A stretch of DNA of 52,760 bases from positions 1-52,760 of the IMG/VR virus record IMGVR_UViG_3300025154_002798; one strand, written 5' to 3'. Shown here piece by piece: positions 1 through 40,136 of this stretch. Numbering within the stretch: position 1 is the stretch's first letter; the number at the start of each line of letters is the position of its first letter. The translations under genes and the position numbers were made by a program. The notes beneath the pieces are model-generated. The model searched no databases and was not told the origin of the DNA. It saw only the letters and a list, made by a program, of their open reading frames with translations. Source of the stretch: a virus.

Positions 1-2337
1 ATGACAGTAAAAGAAAAATCATATATTCTACAAGAAGAAGCTCCACAATTAATGGTTTCCGACCAACAATTGGAATTGTTTCGTGATTTGGAATTAGCAA
101 AATACAACGATAGTGATTTATATAACGGCAAATCTAAAAATAAATTAAATGTAGTTTCTCTATTTACTGGTGCTGGTGGGTTAGACATAGGTTTTAAAGA
201 AGCAGGGTTTAACTGTGTATTTGCATCTGATATTATGCCTCAAGCAGAGACTACTTACAATTATAATTTTCCATCAACACCTTTCGTAAGAAAAGACGTC
301 AGGTTGCTTTCTAAGGAAGAAATAGAGAATTTGATTGGTAAAAACAAAATTGATGTGCTAATTGGTGGACCTCCTTGTCAAGGTTTCTCAAATATGGGGA
401 ATAAAAATTCATCAGACCCTAGAAATTATCTGTTTGAAAATTATGTGAAGATTGTGGAGACAATACAACCCAAATGTTTTCTTTTTGAAAATGTGAAAGG
501 ATTATTTACAATGTTTGAAGGTCGTTTTTTTGATAAAGTCGTAAATGCATTTTTAGAAATTGGTTATAATGTTTCTTACTCTATGATTGATTCGTCTAAA
601 TATGGCGTACCTCAAAAAAGGGAGAGGATAATAATTTTCGGTACTAAGATTAATAGGTCATTTAGATTCCCTAAACCAAATTCAAAATCATTTGGTAGAA
701 TAAGTGCCTTTTCAAATGTTGGTGAAGCTATAAACGATTTAATGCAACTAGAAAATAGATACCCAAATCATGTTCCATTAAATCACAATGAAATAGTTGT
801 TCAAAGATATAAACTTATCCCAGAAGGTGGAAAATTGCCAAAACCTGAGGAACTTCCTGAAGAAATTAGAAGGAAAAATTTTGGAAATACATACACAAGA
901 TTAAACAGAAAGGAAGTCTCATCAACAATAGTTCCTGGCAATAATGCTTTACCTGTTCATCCAGTTTTAAATAGGAGTTTGACAGCTCGTGAAGCTGCAA
1001 GAATTCAAACGTTTCCTGATTATTTTATTTTTAGAGGGGATAGACGTTCCCAATGTATTCTTGTTGGTAATGCTGTGCCTCCATTACTTGCAGCCAAGTT
1101 GGCAGAATGCGTTGCAAATTTTATTAATGAAATTGAATATGATGGAATAAGTCCTGATGGTCAAGCAAAAGTTGGCACTAAATTTTCTCGTCATAAAGTT
1201 AACACAGTAAAGAAAAATGGGCGTGCAAATTTAAAATTCGCTGATTTATTTAGTGGTGTTGGTGGTTTTACGCAAGGCTTAGAAGCTGCTGGACTTGAAT
1301 GTGTTTTAGGTGCAGATTTTGATGAATATGCTGTTGAAGCATATCGTAGAAACCATTCTTCCCATGAATGTTTGAAAATAGACCTAGCTGACCCTAAAAA
1401 TCAAAAGATAGTAGCTGATAGGTTGAAAAAAGAAAAAGTTGATTTAATAGTTGGAGGGCCTCCTTGTCAAGGATTTTCTATTTTTGGGAAAAGACGATTT
1501 GTAAACACAAAGAATCATGATTTAAAAAAAGACAAAAGAAACGATTTGGTGTTTGCATTTGCAAATATTGTAATAAGGTCAAATGCAAACTGGTTTATTA
1601 TGGAAAATGTTCCAGGTATTCTTTCAGCACATAGTGGTTCTTATGTTGAGGAAGTAAGAAATTATTTTTTAAAACATAAATATAAAACGGAAATAAAAAT
1701 CATAAATGCAGCAGATTATGGTGTTCCTCAGTTGAGAAAGCGCTTTATTTTGTTTGGTACTAAGACAGACCTCATGATTCCATTTCCAAAACCAAAATAT
1801 TTTGAAACACCTGAATCATGGCAACTGCCATACAGAACAGTTGGTGAAGTTTTAACTGACTTATCTAACGAAAAAACATTAGGCAAATATCAAAATCATT
1901 TTGCACCAAACCATTCTCCAATAATTGTGGAAAGATTTTCATACATAAAAGAAGGACAAAAATTGGAAATTGAATCTTTACCAGAACACTTGAAGAATGG
2001 TACTAAGACTGGCAAACCAATGGCAAACTACAGTCATGTTTTTAAACGTTTACATAGGAAAAAACCTGCTGGCACTATTGTTCCTGGTCATAATGCATTC
2101 CCTGTTCATCCAACATTAAATAGAACTTTAACTGTGAGGGAAGCTGCAAGAATTCAAACGTTTCCAGATAATTATGAATTTGTTGGTCCAATAATAAATC
2201 AATGTTTACAAGTAGGTAATGCTTTCCCTTGTTTAGTCGCTCAAATTTTTGGGGAAAGGCTTAGAACAGTAATAAATAAAGAATGGAGTGAAGAAAGTGC
2301 GACTCATTTAGCTAAATACTCAATGTTAGAAAAATAA
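1..2337 (+). CDS. Tandem double cytosine-C5 DNA methyltransferase (R-M modification subunit)
   Basis: The 778-residue protein holds two complete C5-cytosine methyltransferase domains in tandem. Domain 1 has the AdoMet motif VSLFTGAGG near residue 52, the catalytic GGPPCQG loop (Cys126), FENVKG and QKRERIIIFG. Domain 2 starts near residue 412 with FADLFSGVGG and has GGPPCQG (Cys489), MENVPG and QLRKRFILFG. Both domains keep the C-terminal AARIQTFPD and VGNAxP motifs, so both look catalytically intact. A single-domain enzyme is usually 300-450 residues. Family knowledge: such enzymes transfer a methyl group to cytosine within a specific site; paired domains often serve asymmetric sites. It is followed 4 bp later by the endonuclease gene. 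It is the only operon on the plus strand and opens at the window's first base, so the start is assumed. Confidence 0.93.
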   Translation: MTVKEKSYILQEEAPQLMVSDQQLELFRDLELAKYNDSDLYNGKSKNKLNVVSLFTGAGGLDIGFKEAGFNCVFASDIMPQAETTYNYNFPSTPFVRKDVRLLSKEEIENLIGKNKIDVLIGGPPCQGFSNMGNKNSSDPRNYLFENYVKIVETIQPKCFLFENVKGLFTMFEGRFFDKVVNAFLEIGYNVSYSMIDSSKYGVPQKRERIIIFGTKINRSFRFPKPNSKSFGRISAFSNVGEAINDLMQLENRYPNHVPLNHNEIVVQRYKLIPEGGKLPKPEELPEEIRRKNFGNTYTRLNRKEVSSTIVPGNNALPVHPVLNRSLTAREAARIQTFPDYFIFRGDRRSQCILVGNAVPPLLAAKLAECVANFINEIEYDGISPDGQAKVGTKFSRHKVNTVKKNGRANLKFADLFSGVGGFTQGLEAAGLECVLGADFDEYAVEAYRRNHSSHECLKIDLADPKNQKIVADRLKKEKVDLIVGGPPCQGFSIFGKRRFVNTKNHDLKKDKRNDLVFAFANIVIRSNANWFIMENVPGILSAHSGSYVEEVRNYFLKHKYKTEIKIINAADYGVPQLRKRFILFGTKTDLMIPFPKPKYFETPESWQLPYRTVGEVLTDLSNEKTLGKYQNHFAPNHSPIIVERFSYIKEGQKLEIESLPEHLKNGTKTGKPMANYSHVFKRLHRKKPAGTIVPGHNAFPVHPTLNRTLTVREAARIQTFPDNYEFVGPIINQCLQVGNAFPCLVAQIFGERLRTVINKEWSEESATHLAKYSMLEK

Positions 2338-4325: not shown

Positions 4326-5510
4326 TTAATGAGCCTTGAAATTATAGAGTGGTTTAATCACTCCGATAATATCAACGGTTTCAGTAATTGCAGATTTAAT
4401 TTCATCAATTGATTTATAAGCCTGTGGAGCTTCATCCAAAGTTTCAGTAACAACCGAAGTTGTATAAACATCTTTCATTGTTTCAACAAAATCAGCCATA
4501 TTAATAGCTTCTTTTGCTTTGCTTCGGCTCATTAATCTACCTGCTCCATGAGGTGCTGAATAGTTCCAGTTTTCATTTCCTTTGCCAATACACAATAAAG
4601 AACCATCACGCATATTAATTGGAATAAGCAATGTTTCCCCATTTTCAGCAGAAACCGCACCTTTTCTCAAAATCATGCGTTTAAAATCAATGTAGTTGTG
4701 TATTGTTTCAAATCGTTCAGCTTCTTGCAAACCAGCTTCTTTTAAAATAATTTCAGCCATTGTTTCACGGTTCAAAGTCGCAAATTTTTGAACAATAGCC
4801 ATATCATTCATATAGTCGGCAAAGTTATTACCAGTTAAAAAGGCTAAATCCTTATCGGTTACAGGCTTTTTAATCTTCTTAATTTCGGCTGCAATTTCTT
4901 TTTCTCTACCTTCTGCTTTTAGTTTGTCAATTGCATTTTTAACAACTTTGCTCATTTCATTGGCATTTTGAAAGGCTTTATCTTGGTAATACTTACAAGT
5001 ATCACCGCCTAATTTTCGGCTTCCTGAATGTATAATCAAATACAGTTCGCCAGTTATTTCATGTTTGCCGACTTCAATAAAATGGTTTCCACCACCAAGC
5101 GAACCAATTGAAAGCACTGCACGGCTTAAATTAACGTGTTTTTCACAGCGTAAATTTGTAAAGTCGAAATCTTTCTTTGATTTTTCGTGAACACTAAAAC
5201 CACAAGGCACTTTAGTTTTAATTACTTCGTCCAGTTTTTCAAAGTCAATTTCTTTGTTTTTGAGCTTAATTGTAAGCATTCCGCAACCAATATCAACACC
5301 TACCAAATTTGGAGTTACTTTGTCGGTTATAGTTATTGTTGTACCAACTGTACAACCTTTACCAGCGTGTGCATCAGGCATAATTCGCACATTTGCATTT
5401 TCATACGCTTCAAAGTTTACCAGTTTTTTAATTTGGTCATACGCTTCAAATTCAAATGTTTCAGCGAATATTAGCGTTTCAATTCCTTTGTTATTTTTAA
5501 TCGTTTTCAT
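4326..5510 (-). CDS. rtcB: RtcB-family RNA ligase (short form)
   Basis: The 394-residue protein carries the RtcB signatures in order: MPDAHAGKG (44-52), the metal site GVDIGCG (Asp73, Cys76), GGGNHF (His143), IHSGSR (His161), HN (His271) and APHGAGR, whose His321 would take GMP. Family knowledge: RtcB uses GTP and Mn to join RNA 2',3'-cyclic phosphate or 3'-phosphate ends to 5'-OH ends in tRNA or damaged-RNA repair. All key residues are present, so activity is plausible. It is one unit of the cassette series, bounded by inverted 9-mers GTTACCTGC/GCAGGTAAC in sites B and C. In a phage context, repair of tRNAs cut by host anticodon nucleases is a reasonable inference. Confidence 0.92.
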   Translation of the reverse strand: MKTIKNNKGIETLIFAETFEFEAYDQIKKLVNFEAYENANVRIMPDAHAGKGCTVGTTITITDKVTPNLVGVDIGCGMLTIKLKNKEIDFEKLDEVIKTKVPCGFSVHEKSKKDFDFTNLRCEKHVNLSRAVLSIGSLGGGNHFIEVGKHEITGELYLIIHSGSRKLGGDTCKYYQDKAFQNANEMSKVVKNAIDKLKAEGREKEIAAEIKKIKKPVTDKDLAFLTGNNFADYMNDMAIVQKFATLNRETMAEIILKEAGLQEAERFETIHNYIDFKRMILRKGAVSAENGETLLIPINMRDGSLLCIGKGNENWNYSAPHGAGRLMSRSKAKEAINMADFVETMKDVYTTSVVTETLDEAPQAYKSIDEIKSAITETVDIIGVIKPLYNFKAH

Positions 5511-6583: not shown

Positions 6584-7366
6584 TTAAATTAAATTAATTC
6601 CCTCTACTACTCCACTTCCAAGCCCATTCTTTTCAGAAGTAGTATTCGGGTTTATTGGGCTTATTTTTATGAAAAATTTATCTTTATCAAAATGTTGTTT
6701 AATCTTTTTAATATCAAAGTCTTTTTCTTCTACCAGCGTTAAGTTTATGGTAGTTTTCAAATTGCTTTCGGTTCTTACATTTCCAAGTTGCTCAATGGTC
6801 ATTTTGTTTTTGAATGGTATTAGCCAATTCCTATGCTCTTCATCCAAGCTATGCAAAGAAAGTTGCAGCGTCAGATTGTCTTTTATCCAAGTAAAATCAG
6901 CATCTTTCAAACCAATAGTTGAAATATAGTGGTGTGTATTTGGGTAGTGTTGGCTTATTTTTTCAATTGCCTTTTTTACGTTTTCAATATTTAAAAACGG
7001 TTCTCCCATTCGGGTATAGTTTATTTTAAACTCTTTACTATCCAATGGGTTTATGTTGTTTTTAGCAATTATAAACTCAACTTGGGTTGTAATTTCTTGC
7101 CAAGTCAAATTACGCCAACTTTTCATTTGTCCAGTTGCACAAAATTTGCATCTTACAGGGCATCCACTCATTACGCTTACTCCAACCATCCAGCGTTCCG
7201 AACGGTCGCTTAATTCGTAATTGTCTAGCATATTTTGCTTTCTACCTATTGCATCTTTTGTATAGTAAGGTAAAAAAGTATCGGTAGTTTCAATTAACAT
7301 TCCGTCCTCTAATTCGAGGCAATAAACGCTACCGTTTTTAAAGTTCTTTTGTTTTTTAATTTTCAT
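6584..7366 (-). CDS. RlmN-like radical SAM protein, frameshifted (N-terminal part)
   Basis: A 260-residue radical SAM protein with the CxxxCxxC iron-sulfur motif at Cys69, Cys73 and Cys76 (GCPVRCKFCATGQ). It also has TRMGEPFLN, an RlmN/Cfr-family signature, then LQLSLHS and KISPINPNTTSE. RlmN and Cfr methylate adenine 2503 of 23S rRNA and need a second catalytic cysteine near the C-terminus. Here translation stops before it. The missing segment with AACGQL lies directly downstream in another frame (6450-6572). As written the enzyme should be inactive unless frameshifting or slippage restores it. At about 303 residues even the repaired form is shorter than RlmN (350-390), so the substrate could differ. 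It is a cassette unit between sites E and F. Confidence 0.85.
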   Translation of the reverse strand: MKIKKQKNFKNGSVYCLELEDGMLIETTDTFLPYYTKDAIGRKQNMLDNYELSDRSERWMVGVSVMSGCPVRCKFCATGQMKSWRNLTWQEITTQVEFIIAKNNINPLDSKEFKINYTRMGEPFLNIENVKKAIEKISQHYPNTHHYISTIGLKDADFTWIKDNLTLQLSLHSLDEEHRNWLIPFKNKMTIEQLGNVRTESNLKTTINLTLVEEKDFDIKKIKQHFDKDKFFIKISPINPNTTSEKNGLGSGVVEGINLI

Positions 7367-36175: not shown

Positions 36176-36238
36176 TTAAAAACAAGTGCGAAATTGCTCC
36201 GCACTTGTAAAATCCGAAAACATCACTAAACGGATTTT
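36176..36238 (-). terminator. Tandem terminators of the helicase-ParB-GNAT-PAPS operon
   Basis: The first hairpin read on the minus strand is AAAATCCG/CGGATTTT (36231-36238 with 36209-36216), which overlaps the stop codon. The second is a perfect 9-bp stem ACAAGTGCG/CGCACTTGT (36200-36208 with 36182-36190) followed by TTTTTAAT. The latter is a strong intrinsic terminator. Confidence 0.8.
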
Positions 36239-37376
36239 ATAATGTTTCTGTCCATTTTTTAATTATTTCGTCTGACTTTCTTAAATAGTTTTTTTCTTTT
36301 AATTGTTCAGGGGTATAATTCACATTTTCGCCAAATGTCCATTTTTTACTCGTAATATTTCCTTCCCAATCACATAATAGTATTCTTTTAACTTGATATT
36401 TAAAACAATCATCGTCGTTAATATGTTGTAATCTTGTCCACATCCATTTAAACACCTTAGATAATTCAGGGTTAATACTTTCTAATAAAAAATCTCTATA
36501 TTCTTTCCAATTTTTAAAATTTTGTGGTAGTTTTTTAATAGAATAAATTAAATTTTCTTTACCATAAATAGCAGCCGTGTGAACTCCATGTAATCGTTCT
36601 TCTAATTTATCGTATGTTTCAGGTTCTAATTCTTGTAAATCAGTTAAACATCTAAAAGCCTTTTCGTGTATTAAATTAGAAACTCTAAAATATCTTAAAT
36701 TTCCACCAATCATATACATTTTGTCGTATATTTTATTATACTTAAAATTATTATCAATTATATATTTCCAAACATCTGTATATCTCCAGTCAATTAATGG
36801 ATAAGCTCTATGTGGCTCATTTTTTCGTCTTAACCAAAATAAATTACTATCCTCACCAAACATTACAAAATTTCTATCTGGGCTTTCTTCTGCTCTTAAT
36901 CCAATTATTGAAACACTTTTACCTTCTAATTTACGAAGATTTTGACCTACCCACAAATTAAATTTATGAAATCTTTTAGGATATTTATTTTCTATTTTGT
37001 GAATTGCAATAGGGTGTTTTTCTCTAACCCATTTTTCTTCTTCACCCCAAGCCCATAAAAATAACTGTTGATGACTTGCTGCGTTTGTCATAAAAATAGC
37101 AACTTGATACCATAATGGAATTACATTTGGTTGCGTCATTGCCCATTCCATAAAATCAATTGTGCCTTGATATTCGGCTTCTTGGTCTTGAAAATAAAGA
37201 ATAAACTTTCTATTTCTTTTTTTCGCCTCTTCGTTTACTAAATGAAATAATGCTGTACTATCTTTACCACCTGAAAATGATAAAGAAATATTATCATAAT
37301 TATCGAATAAAAACGATATTCTTTTTAGAGTTGATTCTAATACATTTTCAATACCTCTTATTGATGTTCTTCCCAT
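36237..37376 (-). CDS. IbrA-like phosphoadenosine phosphosulfate reductase-family protein
   Basis: A 379-residue protein with the PP-loop SFSGGKDSTALFHL (SGGKDS at 35-40), then FILYFQDQEAEY and AYPLIDWRYTDVWKYI, as in the PAPS-reductase/IbrA (DUF3440) group. Classical members reduce PAPS; related phage and island proteins such as IbrA pair with ParB-like IbrB and are not sulfur-assimilation enzymes. Its gene is last in a tight operon with SNF2 helicase, ParB-like and GNAT genes. A role in nucleic acid modification, perhaps sulfur or adenylation chemistry, is an inference. It overlaps the GNAT gene by 19 bp. Confidence 0.85.
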   Translation of the reverse strand: MGRTSIRGIENVLESTLKRISFLFDNYDNISLSFSGGKDSTALFHLVNEEAKKRNRKFILYFQDQEAEYQGTIDFMEWAMTQPNVIPLWYQVAIFMTNAASHQQLFLWAWGEEEKWVREKHPIAIHKIENKYPKRFHKFNLWVGQNLRKLEGKSVSIIGLRAEESPDRNFVMFGEDSNLFWLRRKNEPHRAYPLIDWRYTDVWKYIIDNNFKYNKIYDKMYMIGGNLRYFRVSNLIHEKAFRCLTDLQELEPETYDKLEERLHGVHTAAIYGKENLIYSIKKLPQNFKNWKEYRDFLLESINPELSKVFKWMWTRLQHINDDDCFKYQVKRILLCDWEGNITSKKWTFGENVNYTPEQLKEKNYLRKSDEIIKKWTETL

Positions 37377-37744
37377 TTTTTAATATATTGAATTGTTTTA
37401 CAACATTTATATTCTTTTATTATTTTAGCTCCGTTTTTTAAGTGGTATCCAATAGATTTATCTGTAACATTACCTTCTATTATATTAATTCCTAATGACT
37501 TAATATAATTAAATCTTTCAACATTTAATTTAGAATATATTCCTTTATTTCTATAATCTTTTAAAACAAAACCATTTTTTAAAATAGCTTTATTTTTTAA
37601 TGTCATTAAACCGCAAAAACCAACAATATTTTTATTAATAAAATATCCAAAATATATATTAGTCGAATTATTAAATATTAATCCAGCTTTTTTTGCTTTT
37701 GCTATAATTGGTTCTATTTCCTTATTATTTATTATTTTAATCAT
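37358..37744 (-). CDS. Small GNAT acetyltransferase-fold protein, 128 aa
   Basis: The sequence has the GNAT core: IVGFCGLMTLKNKAILKNGFVLKDYRNKGIYSKLN, where RNKGI is a degenerate acetyl-CoA loop, and the conserved end VTDKSIGYHLKNGAKIIKEYK. It is shorter than typical GNATs (about 145-170). It overlaps the ParB-like gene by 4 bp and the PAPS-reductase-like gene by 19 bp, so all are co-translated. The phage Mu Mom DNA modifier has the same fold, which makes a base-modifying role conceivable but unproven here. Confidence 0.75.
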   Translation of the reverse strand: MIKIINNKEIEPIIAKAKKAGLIFNNSTNIYFGYFINKNIVGFCGLMTLKNKAILKNGFVLKDYRNKGIYSKLNVERFNYIKSLGINIIEGNVTDKSIGYHLKNGAKIIKEYKCCKTIQYIKKWEEHQ

Positions 37745-38289
37745 ATTTCATCATATTTTATATCACTTTCAACTTCAACAATTTGTCGTTCAATTGAGTA
37801 TGGAACTCCTTTAATTTCTGAAGCAATACCACGTAATCCTATTAATCTTTGAACTTCTTCAAGTGTCATTCCAAGTTCTTTCATAATTTTTAATTCATCC
37901 CAACCATCTTTTAACATTACGACTAAAGATGCTTGCAATTCTACTTCATGTTTTCCTCTTGCTCTATTATGGCGAATTGTTGAAGCCATTCTATCGCTTA
38001 AATCTTTTAATATTACTGAAACTGGCATACATCCGTTTTCTCTATCGAAAATATCTTTATGTTTTATCATAATTAAGTGTCTATGATAACCATCAACAAG
38101 AATATATTTATCTCTTTCTTTATCATAAAAACAGACAATCGGCATAGTATAACCATCACATTTAATACTTTGGTATAATAAATCCATTTCTCTTTTGGCT
38201 ACGTGATTTGGATTGTAATCATTAGCCTCAATTTTTTCTAATGGTACAGCAATTACATTGTATACCGGACTTCTAAAAATTTCTTTCAT
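37741..38289 (-). CDS. IbrB/ParB-like nuclease-domain protein
   Basis: A 182-residue protein with the ParB N-terminal signature (VPLEKIEANDYNPNHVAKREMDLL, then KYILVDGYHRHLI; DGYHRH at 66-71) and a following helical HTH-like segment (GMTLEEVQRLIGL). ParB/Srx-fold domains hydrolyse nucleotides or act in DNA binding. Co-occurrence with a PAPS-reductase-like protein is the IbrA/IbrB arrangement. It overlaps the helicase and GNAT genes by 4 bp each, which argues for a fixed protein ratio. Confidence 0.82.
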   Translation of the reverse strand: MKEIFRSPVYNVIAVPLEKIEANDYNPNHVAKREMDLLYQSIKCDGYTMPIVCFYDKERDKYILVDGYHRHLIMIKHKDIFDRENGCMPVSVILKDLSDRMASTIRHNRARGKHEVELQASLVVMLKDGWDELKIMKELGMTLEEVQRLIGLRGIASEIKGVPYSIERQIVEVESDIKYDEI

Positions 38290-39470
38290 AATATTTCTTT
38301 TAATTGTTGCGATGTTTTACTTTTAAAATATTCTAATAATTTTGATTTTCTGTCGATATTATCATTTATTAATTTTTCTAATCCTATGTTTCCTGTTAAA
38401 TCATAAAAAATACAATCTTGCTTTTGACCTGTGCGAAAAATACGCCTTTCTACTTGCTCACGTTGAGCATAATCCCACGTTTTATCCCAAAAAATAATAA
38501 CATTATTATCTTGTAAATTTAATCCAAAACTATGCTTTTGCAAACTCATAATCTTAATATCTTTGTAATATTTTTTTAATGTATTTTGCGTATCAATATA
38601 TTTTGCATAAATAAGTATTTTTGACTTATCTAATGTTTCAATTAATTTATCAACAATAGTAAATTTATCAGGACTTAATGAATAATTATGTTGCATTTTT
38701 TGAGTGATTTCTAAAAATATATTATTATTTTTTGCCATTAAAACTTCATTATCTAAATACTTATTTTTTAGATTATTGTGTTCTTGAATTTCTTCATCTG
38801 ATAAATTATAATTAATATTTATGTGTTGCTGTCCAATACTTAAAGATAACTTGCTTTCAAAAATAAACGGTTCAATTAACGAATATAAATAATCAATATT
38901 GTGATATTGTTTGATAAATTCTTTAATTATTTTTCCACCTTGTTTAATTTGAATATACTCGCAAAAAGTGTTTTTAAATTCTGCGAAAGACATATTTAAT
39001 ATTTTCGGACTTAAAAAATAAATCTGCGAATATAAATCAAGTAAATTTTTGCTTAGTGGAGTTCCGTTTAGAATTAGTCTAAATTTAGATAGTTTAGATA
39101 TTTCAATCATTCTCTTTGTCCTTTTTGCATCTGAATTTTTAATCTTTAAACTTTCGTCAATTATAACAAATGAATTTTCTGATTTTTCTAACTTTTTTAA
39201 TATTTCTAAATAAATTCTATCTGAATTTTGGATGCTTTCTATTCCGATAATTTCACAATCTAAACCACCCCACTTATTTAATTCTTTTAATAAATTTTCT
39301 TTCGTTTGAAAAGGAGTAAACCATATGATTAAATCAGTTTCGGTGTTTTTTATTAATTCTAATGATGAAAGTGTTTTTCCGGTTCCAGCATCCATAAATA
39401 ACGCACCGCATTTTACGCTTTTTAGCTTATCTATTGCCTTAGATTGACTATTTAAAAAGACTTTCGTCAT
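38286..39470 (-). CDS. SNF2-family (DEAD-like) helicase/ATPase
   Basis: A 394-residue protein with Walker A MDAGTGKTLSS (27-33 core), the DExx box VIIDESLKIKN near 120 and motif III LILNGTPLSKN. The SNF2-type C-terminal end HSFGLNLQDNNVIIFWDKTWDYAQREQVERRIFRTGQ carries the arginine-finger motif VI. It is a compact form of the family, which translocates on duplex DNA. First gene of the modification-like operon, overlapping the upstream 92-aa gene by 23 bp. In phages such helicases can serve replication, but here it is linked to IbrA/IbrB-type genes. Confidence 0.88.
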   Translation of the reverse strand: MTKVFLNSQSKAIDKLKSVKCGALFMDAGTGKTLSSLELIKNTETDLIIWFTPFQTKENLLKELNKWGGLDCEIIGIESIQNSDRIYLEILKKLEKSENSFVIIDESLKIKNSDAKRTKRMIEISKLSKFRLILNGTPLSKNLLDLYSQIYFLSPKILNMSFAEFKNTFCEYIQIKQGGKIIKEFIKQYHNIDYLYSLIEPFIFESKLSLSIGQQHININYNLSDEEIQEHNNLKNKYLDNEVLMAKNNNIFLEITQKMQHNYSLSPDKFTIVDKLIETLDKSKILIYAKYIDTQNTLKKYYKDIKIMSLQKHSFGLNLQDNNVIIFWDKTWDYAQREQVERRIFRTGQKQDCIFYDLTGNIGLEKLINDNIDRKSKLLEYFKSKTSQQLKEIL

Positions 39471-39726
39471 AATTTACTTCTTTTTTTTGTTCAATTGGAA
39501 TGTGATGAATTACTTCAATATCAATATTTTCATCAGTAATTTGTATATTATTTTTTTCTGCTAAAAATGTAGGAATACAAACACTACCATTTAATTTATT
39601 ATGAACTTTTAAATTTCTACATAATTTTTTTGGTAGCCATATTTCATTTTCATCAATACTGACAAGTATTGCCTTGCCAGTATCGTGTTTTAGTTTATTA
39701 AAGTAAATTTTTACTGATTTAATCAT
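39448..39726 (-). CDS. Hypothetical protein upstream of helicase, 92 aa
   Basis: Beta-rich (KAILVSIDENEIWLPKKLCRNLKVHNKLNGSVCIPTFLAEK), plausibly an OB-like or RNA/DNA-binding fold. It overlaps the 136-aa gene by one base and the helicase gene by 23 bp, so it belongs to the same transcript. Family not recognised. Confidence 0.58.
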   Translation of the reverse strand: MIKSVKIYFNKLKHDTGKAILVSIDENEIWLPKKLCRNLKVHNKLNGSVCIPTFLAEKNNIQITDENIDIEVIHHIPIEQKKEVNYDESLFK

Positions 39727-40136
39727 TACAACGAATTTACTAATTCATCATAATATTCTGCCATTTCTAAAACTTCTTCTTTTAAATCTCCATTAAATAA
39801 TAAAGAAGCAGTTTCGAAACATATTGCTTTTTGTTCGGTTGGCTGTTTGTCTTTTAGTTTTTCAACTAATTCCGCTTTTACTTCTATGCGATAAATTTCA
39901 TTTTCAACGCTTTCAATAATTTGTTCTTGTTGTGATTTTATCCAATTATAGCCTTGACTTTGACAATCAATATAAACATTTACTTTAAAATTTCCGTTTA
40001 CTTCGTGAACATAAGTTTTAGTTGACATCTTTTTAGTGTTATAACCTCGTTCGATGTAAACTCTTTTTAATTCGCCTTTTGTCCAAAATTTACCATTAAG
40101 TTTTTCTGCTAATTGTTCTAATGTGATGTTTTTCAT
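39726..40136 (-). CDS. Hypothetical protein, 136 aa, first gene of operon
   Basis: MKNITLEQLAEKLNGKFWTKGELKRVYIERGYNTKKMSTKTYVHEVNGNFKVNVYIDCQ has the look of a small DNA-associated protein common in Bacteroidetes phages, followed by a helical C-terminus. No named family. It is directly controlled by the promoter and operator at 40162-40204. Confidence 0.6.
   Translation of the reverse strand: MKNITLEQLAEKLNGKFWTKGELKRVYIERGYNTKKMSTKTYVHEVNGNFKVNVYIDCQSQGYNWIKSQQEQIIESVENEIYRIEVKAELVEKLKDKQPTEQKAICFETASLLFNGDLKEEVLEMAEYYDELVNSL

Follow-up and report, generated by a model that had tools for sequence, protein, structure and literature searches.

A viral IbrA/IbrB operon with an exchangeable enzyme slot may encode a modular DNA hypermodification system

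IbrA and IbrB genes are common in phages and bacteria, where their usual annotations are sulfur metabolism or chromosome partition. In Escherichia coli, the IbrAB island is reported to activate the expression of prophage eib genes (Sandt 2002, as cited in PMC7649339). We analyzed an operon that contains this pair in a viral record of 52,760 bp (IMG/VR IMGVR_UViG_3300025154_002798; we refer to this whole stretch as the window). The window has a G+C content of 31% and carries terminase, major head, and primase-helicase genes, and its nearest cultured relatives at the operon's locus are Flavobacterium phages. The cassette lies on the minus strand (36237-39470) and is transcribed in the order SNF2, IbrB/ParB, GNAT, and IbrA (PAPS reductase-like, or PAPSR). 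On balance, we favor the view that it encodes a modular system for hypermodification, whose target is most likely the DNA of the phage itself. Its four genes, in order of transcription, are:

38286-39470, minus strand: single-module SNF2/superfamily 2 (SF2) helicase-like translocase, 394 amino acids
37741-38289, minus strand: IbrB-like ParB/Srx-superfamily NTPase-fold protein with a helix-turn-helix (HTH)-like C-terminal part, 182 amino acids
37358-37744, minus strand: small GNAT-fold acetyltransferase in an exchangeable slot between ibrB and ibrA, 128 amino acids
36237-37376, minus strand: IbrA-like PP-loop ATP pyrophosphatase / PAPS-reductase-fold protein with a DUF3440 C-terminal part, 379 amino acids

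The window pair belongs to the same two families as the Eib co-activators of the E. coli ibrAB island and prophages, whose genes are likewise adjacent and overlapping. The pair from E. coli phage PhiR5_2 can be aligned with that of the window and has the same invariant motifs; the E. coli proteins are 28% (IbrA) and 39% (IbrB) identical to those of the window. Unlike the window, the two E. coli regions that we inspected have the pair without SNF2, GNAT-slot, or EctC-like genes in the cassette. DNA similar to IbrA/IbrB is present in 1913 of 5426 complete E. coli genomes, at up to four places per genome, and 65 of the places are on plasmids. The Flavobacterium phages 6H, 2A, and FCL-2 are closer: they have a window-like order (SNF2-IbrB-IbrA, with a small gene upstream of SNF2), and their proteins are 74-79% (IbrA) and 80-81% (IbrB) identical to the window's, but the GNAT is missing and the slot is empty. 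What is new here is the genomic context, that is, the exchangeable enzymes around the pair.

A protein search of 50,697 phage records gave nearly identical distributions for the two proteins (216 records for IbrA and 218 for IbrB, with the same hosts). We also fetched 222 loci that hold IbrB, found mostly by similarity to IbrA or IbrB. At 95% identity, these reduce to 167 non-redundant loci, and IbrA is nearby in 166 of them (98 viral and 68 from bacterial genomes), with both orders of ibrA and ibrB represented. Unless noted otherwise, the counts below refer to these 166 loci; they are bounded by the collections, by the best 80 loci taken per search, and by the relatives' similarity to the query, and they ignore kinship.

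The DNA between ibrB and ibrA varies among the relatives: it may be empty, or it may encode a GNAT, a GT-A-like glycosyltransferase, a methyltransferase-like protein, or a cupin of 123-155 amino acids. In the slot or next to it, we found EctC-like proteins in 19 loci, methyltransferases in 10, glycosyltransferases in seven, GNATs in three, a 167-amino-acid protein with HTDP and SPHQ motifs in two, and a TET-associated glycosyltransferase (TAGT) in one. Overall, the tailoring enzymes that we scored lie beside the pair in 34 loci, 33 of which are viral.

To gauge the specificity of this association, we used the slot proteins as queries against viral contigs. (Because single-linkage cluster c0 had mixed EctC with IbrB and with a second ParB-like family, the EctC counts were redone with profiles.) Among the best 80 viral loci with an EctC-like protein, 74 have both IbrA and IbrB adjoining or fused: 63 have both within 2.5 kb, six are IbrB fusions, and in five, which the gene caller had missed, both partners flank the match. 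Of the remaining six, five have one partner (in four of these, a contig end is no more than 1.5 kb away), and the sixth, at a contig end, has neither. The slot glycosyltransferase, which weakly matches the phrog_854 glucosyltransferase (E = 9e-5), has both partners in 14 of 18 viral loci; of the other four, three are truncated at contig ends and one lacks both. All four of the other viral loci with a relative of the window GNAT are IbrA/IbrB operons (five of five if the window is counted). In viruses, then, the EctC-like, GNAT, and glycosyltransferase families are near-exclusively coupled to IbrA/IbrB.

The slot cupin is a homolog of ectoine synthase, with matches of up to E = 1e-44 to Pfam Ectoine_synth and E = 9e-28 to EctC structures in the PDB. 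The iron ligands of EctC (Glu57, Tyr84/85, and His92/93) are invariant in 16 slot proteins, and the substrate residues Arg25, Thr40, and Tyr52 are retained; Trp21, a substrate contact in solved EctC, is mostly replaced (residue roles are from PMC6344544). In the Mycobacterium phages Gaia and Nebkiss, the EctC-like domain is fused to IbrB, and GenBank labels the proteins of Gaia and of XCL1123 as "ectoine synthase/ParB multidomain protein." The family with the HTDP and SPHQ motifs is found at L323:7115-7618, L334:6573-7079, and 15 other loci, in nearly all cases near a slot-type glycosyltransferase and IbrA/IbrB. It has no match in Pfam or PHROG and is possibly an iron-dependent oxygenase or a cupin.

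The Pfam scores of the window GNAT are below threshold (best E = 4e-4), and it had no match among the phage records and none in the first single-sequence scan. Structure prediction gives a GNAT fold (pLDDT, a predicted local confidence score, of 78) that matches many GNATs in the PDB at E of about 1e-5, and a homolog from the same cluster (locus L144) passes the Pfam threshold (E = 2e-10). In loci L341 and L005/L342, the GNAT lies exactly between ibrB and ibrA, as it does in the window, while L343 and L144 have the layout GNAT-glycosyltransferase-IbrA-IbrB-ParB-terminase. We had considered that the gene might be a stray insertion and dropped this idea: since all of the viral relatives that we found sit in IbrA/IbrB operons, the GNAT is a recurrent component and not a passenger. 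An earlier note on this DNA, made from the sequence alone, had drawn an analogy with the Mom DNA modifier of phage Mu, and this found no specific support. No Mom family turned up for the GNAT in Pfam, PHROGs, or NCBIfam (a direct comparison with Mom was not made); the protein's matches are to acetyltransferase models and structures of a generic kind, and its acetyl-CoA loop, RNKGIY, differs from R/QxxGxG/A at the last position. Because the fold search yields generic acetyltransferases alone, the substrate cannot be read from the fold.

IbrA matches PAPS_reduct (E = 6e-19) and DUF3440 (E = 2e-9) in Pfam, as well as phrog_2302 (E = 2e-115). Given the first of these matches and the names in GenBank and PHROG, IbrA might be taken for a genuine PAPS reductase, encoded as an auxiliary metabolic gene to assimilate sulfur in the infected cell. 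We consider this extremely improbable, and we ruled out an assimilatory enzyme of the CysH type: the reductase motif ECG[LIVM]H is absent from all 88 family sequences and there is no invariant cysteine. (In the best column, cysteine occupancy is 84%, with glutamine in the window IbrA.) The additional C-terminal DUF3440 part and the nearly constant presence of a ParB-fold partner also argue against a reductase. The PP-loop, on the other hand, is kept: S[GAS]GKDS is present in 88 of 88 family members, and GxRxxES in 83 of 88. The predicted structure is confident in the PP-loop half, and its nearest folds are the PP domain of FAD synthase, with Z = 15.1 and 14.8, and, almost level with it, APS/PAPS reductases, with Z = 13-14.5; the sequence profile favors human FAD synthase (E = 6e-10).

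Another sulfur-based reading is that the cassette makes a phosphorothioate or a similar modification of the DNA backbone, as the Dnd, Ssp, and BREX type 4 systems do. IbrA has weak similarity to models of BrxP (E = 8e-8) and DndC (E = 1e-6), and DndB also brings a ParB fold to its system. But DndC relies on cysteines both for its 4Fe-4S center and to transfer sulfur (PMC10853773), and no cysteine is invariant in the IbrA family; we recognized no cysteine desulfurase, DndD, or DndE nearby; and acetyl, sugar, or methyl tailoring suits the side chain of a base better than a backbone thiol. We therefore ruled out chemistry of the Dnd/Ssp type, and backbone sulfur modification more broadly seems very improbable. 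With the PP-loop kept, the reductase motif absent, and no invariant cysteine, IbrA looks like an ATP-pyrophosphatase-type enzyme, neither a sulfate reductase nor DndC-like.

Two other arrangements of this family were seen. In some viral cassettes, the C-terminal part of the DUF3440 region is a separate protein of 84-97 amino acids (L129:3696-3953, L139:2448-2714, and L148:6750-7004). In two loci, a second, distinct PAPSR-like protein lies directly 3' of IbrA (L025:9113-9880 and L029:4540-5289; Pfam E = 8e-15 and 4e-6), and no SNF2 was seen in either locus.

IbrB of the window matches phrog_2159 (E = 3e-77) and ParB_N from Pfam (E = 0.003; on its own, the window sequence falls below the Pfam cut-off). 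Searched against the PDB, the family profile finds Noc/ParB (E = 2e-7) and then the free serine kinase SerK (E = 6e-4). A DGxHR-type motif is present in 306 of 309 IbrB proteins and NRAxGxH in 300 of 309, and the ParB N-domain motif region is followed by the HTH-like part, which places IbrB in the ParB/Srx superfamily. The SNF2 protein matches SNF2-rel_dom (E = 5e-13, above the cut-off) and phrog_62 (E = 6e-62) and has SNF2-type SF2 motifs (GTGKT, DESL, LNGTP, and RIFRTGQ). SNF2 adjoins the pair in 69 of the 166 loci (59 of 98 viral and 10 of 68 bacterial). A "helicase" of the Nebkiss/Gaia locus (L037) was labeled as SNF2 by profile, but at 24% identity and with motifs I and II gapped it is no clear homolog, and we did not use it. 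The gene content described in the earlier note (helicase, ParB/Srx, GNAT, and PP-loop) is thus backed by family matches, by motifs, and, for the GNAT, by fold prediction.

SNF2 and ParB folds act on DNA, and the TAGT and phrog_842 families are named for the glycosylation of DNA bases. One viral operon has the order SNF2-IbrB-glycosyltransferase-IbrA-ParB-TAGT, and its last protein matches the TET-Associated Glycosyltransferase family of Pfam (E = 7e-32) and phrog_842, beta-glucosyl-HMC-alpha-glucosyltransferase (E = 1e-69). Several viral operons join a methyltransferase, a glycosyltransferase, the 167-amino-acid HTDP/SPHQ protein, IbrA, IbrB, a second ParB-like protein, and terminase, and terminase genes often adjoin the cassette. 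In a possible parallel, an independent study of cryoconite phages describes an acetyltransferase that replaces DNA methyltransferases in a variable region of the packaging module (PMC7468147). The earlier note had suggested a possible DNA modification module. The exchangeable transferases and cyclase in the slot, along with the TAGT downstream of IbrA in one operon, lend this suggestion substantial comparative support; sequence evidence does not prove a modified nucleoside, and the module stays inferred.

A different target should be considered as well. The substrate of the EctC-like, GNAT, and glycosyltransferase enzymes could be a nucleotide or small molecule in free form, so that the cassette would make a soluble product (a signal decoy, an osmolyte-like compound, or a modifier of the nucleotide pool) and leave no mark on DNA. 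The normal substrate of EctC is free N-acetyl-diaminobutyrate (PMC6344544), relatives of the ParB/Srx fold include SerK, and FAD synthase, the nearest fold to IbrA, adenylates a free cofactor. The frequent SNF2 neighbor, the HTH-like part of IbrB, the DNA-base glycosyltransferase within one operon, and the often adjacent terminase fit poorly with a soluble product, which we regard as fairly unlikely.

A hypermodification pathway is the simplest account of a constant core that uses ATP, a DNA translocase, and finishing enzymes that replace one another. We infer the DNA target, the order of steps, the chemistry, and the protection from nucleases as follows. IbrB, with its ParB/Srx fold and DNA-binding-like part, and the SNF2 translocase would place the machinery on DNA. 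IbrA would spend ATP, releasing pyrophosphate, to activate either a base position or the incoming group. The group installed would be small and would probably carry an amine. The slot enzyme would then finish the modification. In the window, the GNAT would acylate the installed group; in relatives, this finishing role would fall to an EctC-like dehydrating cyclase, a glycosyltransferase, or a methyltransferase. By exchanging the final enzyme, related phages could alter the mark and evade different host nucleases. The amine is suggested by analogy with ectoine synthesis, in which the GNAT EctA acetylates an amine. EctC then closes the ring of the acetylated product (PMC6344544). In its most specific form, which we advance tentatively and would not bet on, the proposal is a hypermodification of DNA bases that belongs to a new class: IbrA/IbrB would attach an amine-bearing group, and the exchangeable enzymes would acetylate, glycosylate, or methylate it or, in the case of an EctC-type cyclase working on DNA, convert it to a cyclic amidine.

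Several observations weigh against hypermodification of DNA. Most loci (132 of 166, including 67 of the 68 from bacterial genomes) have no scored tailoring enzyme, which implies that the bare pair must do something alone. TAGT is near IbrA/IbrB in two loci only (in the second, from a Dysgonomonas genome, the homolog is 1.9 kb from the pair). The methyltransferases beside phage IbrAB may be ordinary anti-restriction enzymes, the acetyl-CoA loop of the window GNAT is degenerate at one position, and we found no nucleoside data for any carrier.

The bare pairs and the reported activation of eib genes suggest instead that IbrA and IbrB are regulators: a ParB-like DNA-binding protein and its PP-loop partner would co-activate phage or host genes, and the flanking enzymes would be unrelated passengers. 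This applies above all to the bare bacterial pairs (58 of the 68 non-redundant bacterial loci, drawn from L168-L247, have IbrA-IbrB without SNF2) and to the many E. coli genomes with such DNA, and the match of IbrB to Noc/ParB agrees with it. Regulation does not explain why the viral EctC-like, GNAT, and glycosyltransferase families are nearly confined to IbrA/IbrB operons, why EctC is fused to IbrB, or why the PP-loop of IbrA is invariant; also, transcription could shift through a pair that modifies DNA. As an account of the cassette, we judge regulation to be unlikely, and we continue to favor hypermodification.

The operon structure described in the earlier note held up. All four open reading frames are present on the minus strand, with overlaps of 4 bp (SNF2/IbrB), 4 bp (IbrB/GNAT), and 19 bp (GNAT/IbrA), and the tandem terminators at the operon's end are real: 3' of ibrA, a consensus intrinsic terminator (36208-36182) is accompanied by a second, adjacent hairpin, and the two fold at -21.9 kcal/mol (z = -4.8 versus shuffles). 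Three further features belong here:

39726-40136, minus strand: protein of cluster c6, probable first gene of the transcription unit, 136 amino acids
39448-39726, minus strand: conserved protein of cluster c3, upstream of SNF2, probable component, 92 amino acids
36182-36236, minus strand: tandem hairpins / intrinsic terminator at the operon's end, from consensus match and folding

The 92-amino-acid gene overlaps SNF2 by 23 bp and has homologs upstream of SNF2 in 37 non-redundant IbrA/IbrB loci. The 136-amino-acid gene overlaps it in turn by 1 bp and has homologs at the matching position in 16-17 non-redundant loci. Because of these overlaps and this conservation, the transcription unit probably reaches upstream to 40136 and includes six genes.

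Elsewhere in the window, a large DNA methyltransferase (1-2337, plus strand; phrog_116, E = 2e-153) begins at the record's first base, on the strand opposite to the cassette. A radical SAM protein of 260 amino acids (6584-7366, minus strand; Pfam Radical_SAM, E = 2e-8; phrog_24834) may be a further modification enzyme encoded by the phage. The phage also carries an RtcB-type RNA ligase (4326-5510, minus strand; phrog_1075, E = 2e-132).

If the pair does install a decorated base, this would explain a common pair of genes and correct its misreading as sulfur metabolism, and the EctC-type cyclase would gain an unexpected role on nucleic acid. The proposal is testable in cultured carriers, including the Flavobacterium phages 2A and FCL-2, Mycobacterium phage Gaia, Pseudoalteromonas phage XCL1123, which has EctC, and Streptococcus thermophilus phage CHPC1148, which like the two Flavobacterium phages has the core but no slot enzyme. 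In the literature searched, we found no paper that ties IbrA/IbrB to EctC, GNAT, or DNA modification. Iyer and colleagues, in Nucleic Acids Research in 2013, reportedly made predictions about phage DNA modification, including a lysidine-like modification of DNA, and this work may hold partial precedence.

Compared with ectoine synthesis genes, the slot EctC proteins have no recognized ectA or ectB beside them, have mostly lost Trp21, and are in some cases fused to IbrB. Yet they retain the iron ligands and most of the substrate residues, and just as EctC's pathway partner EctA is a GNAT, EctC-like and GNAT proteins fill the same slot in different viruses. Known DNA hypermodification systems (T4-type glucosylation, TET with TAGT, Mu Mom, and the deazaguanine system Dpd) differ in that no hydroxymethylase, TET, DpdA, or Mom was recognized in the cassette, whose core is instead a PP-loop/ParB pair and whose relatives involve an EctC-type cyclase. 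What these systems share with our proposal is a core that installs a chemical handle and a variable set of group-transfer enzymes; TAGT occurs in one IbrA/IbrB operon, and in the Dpd system, DpdB is also ParB-like (PMC12839542) and DpdE is also SNF2-like.

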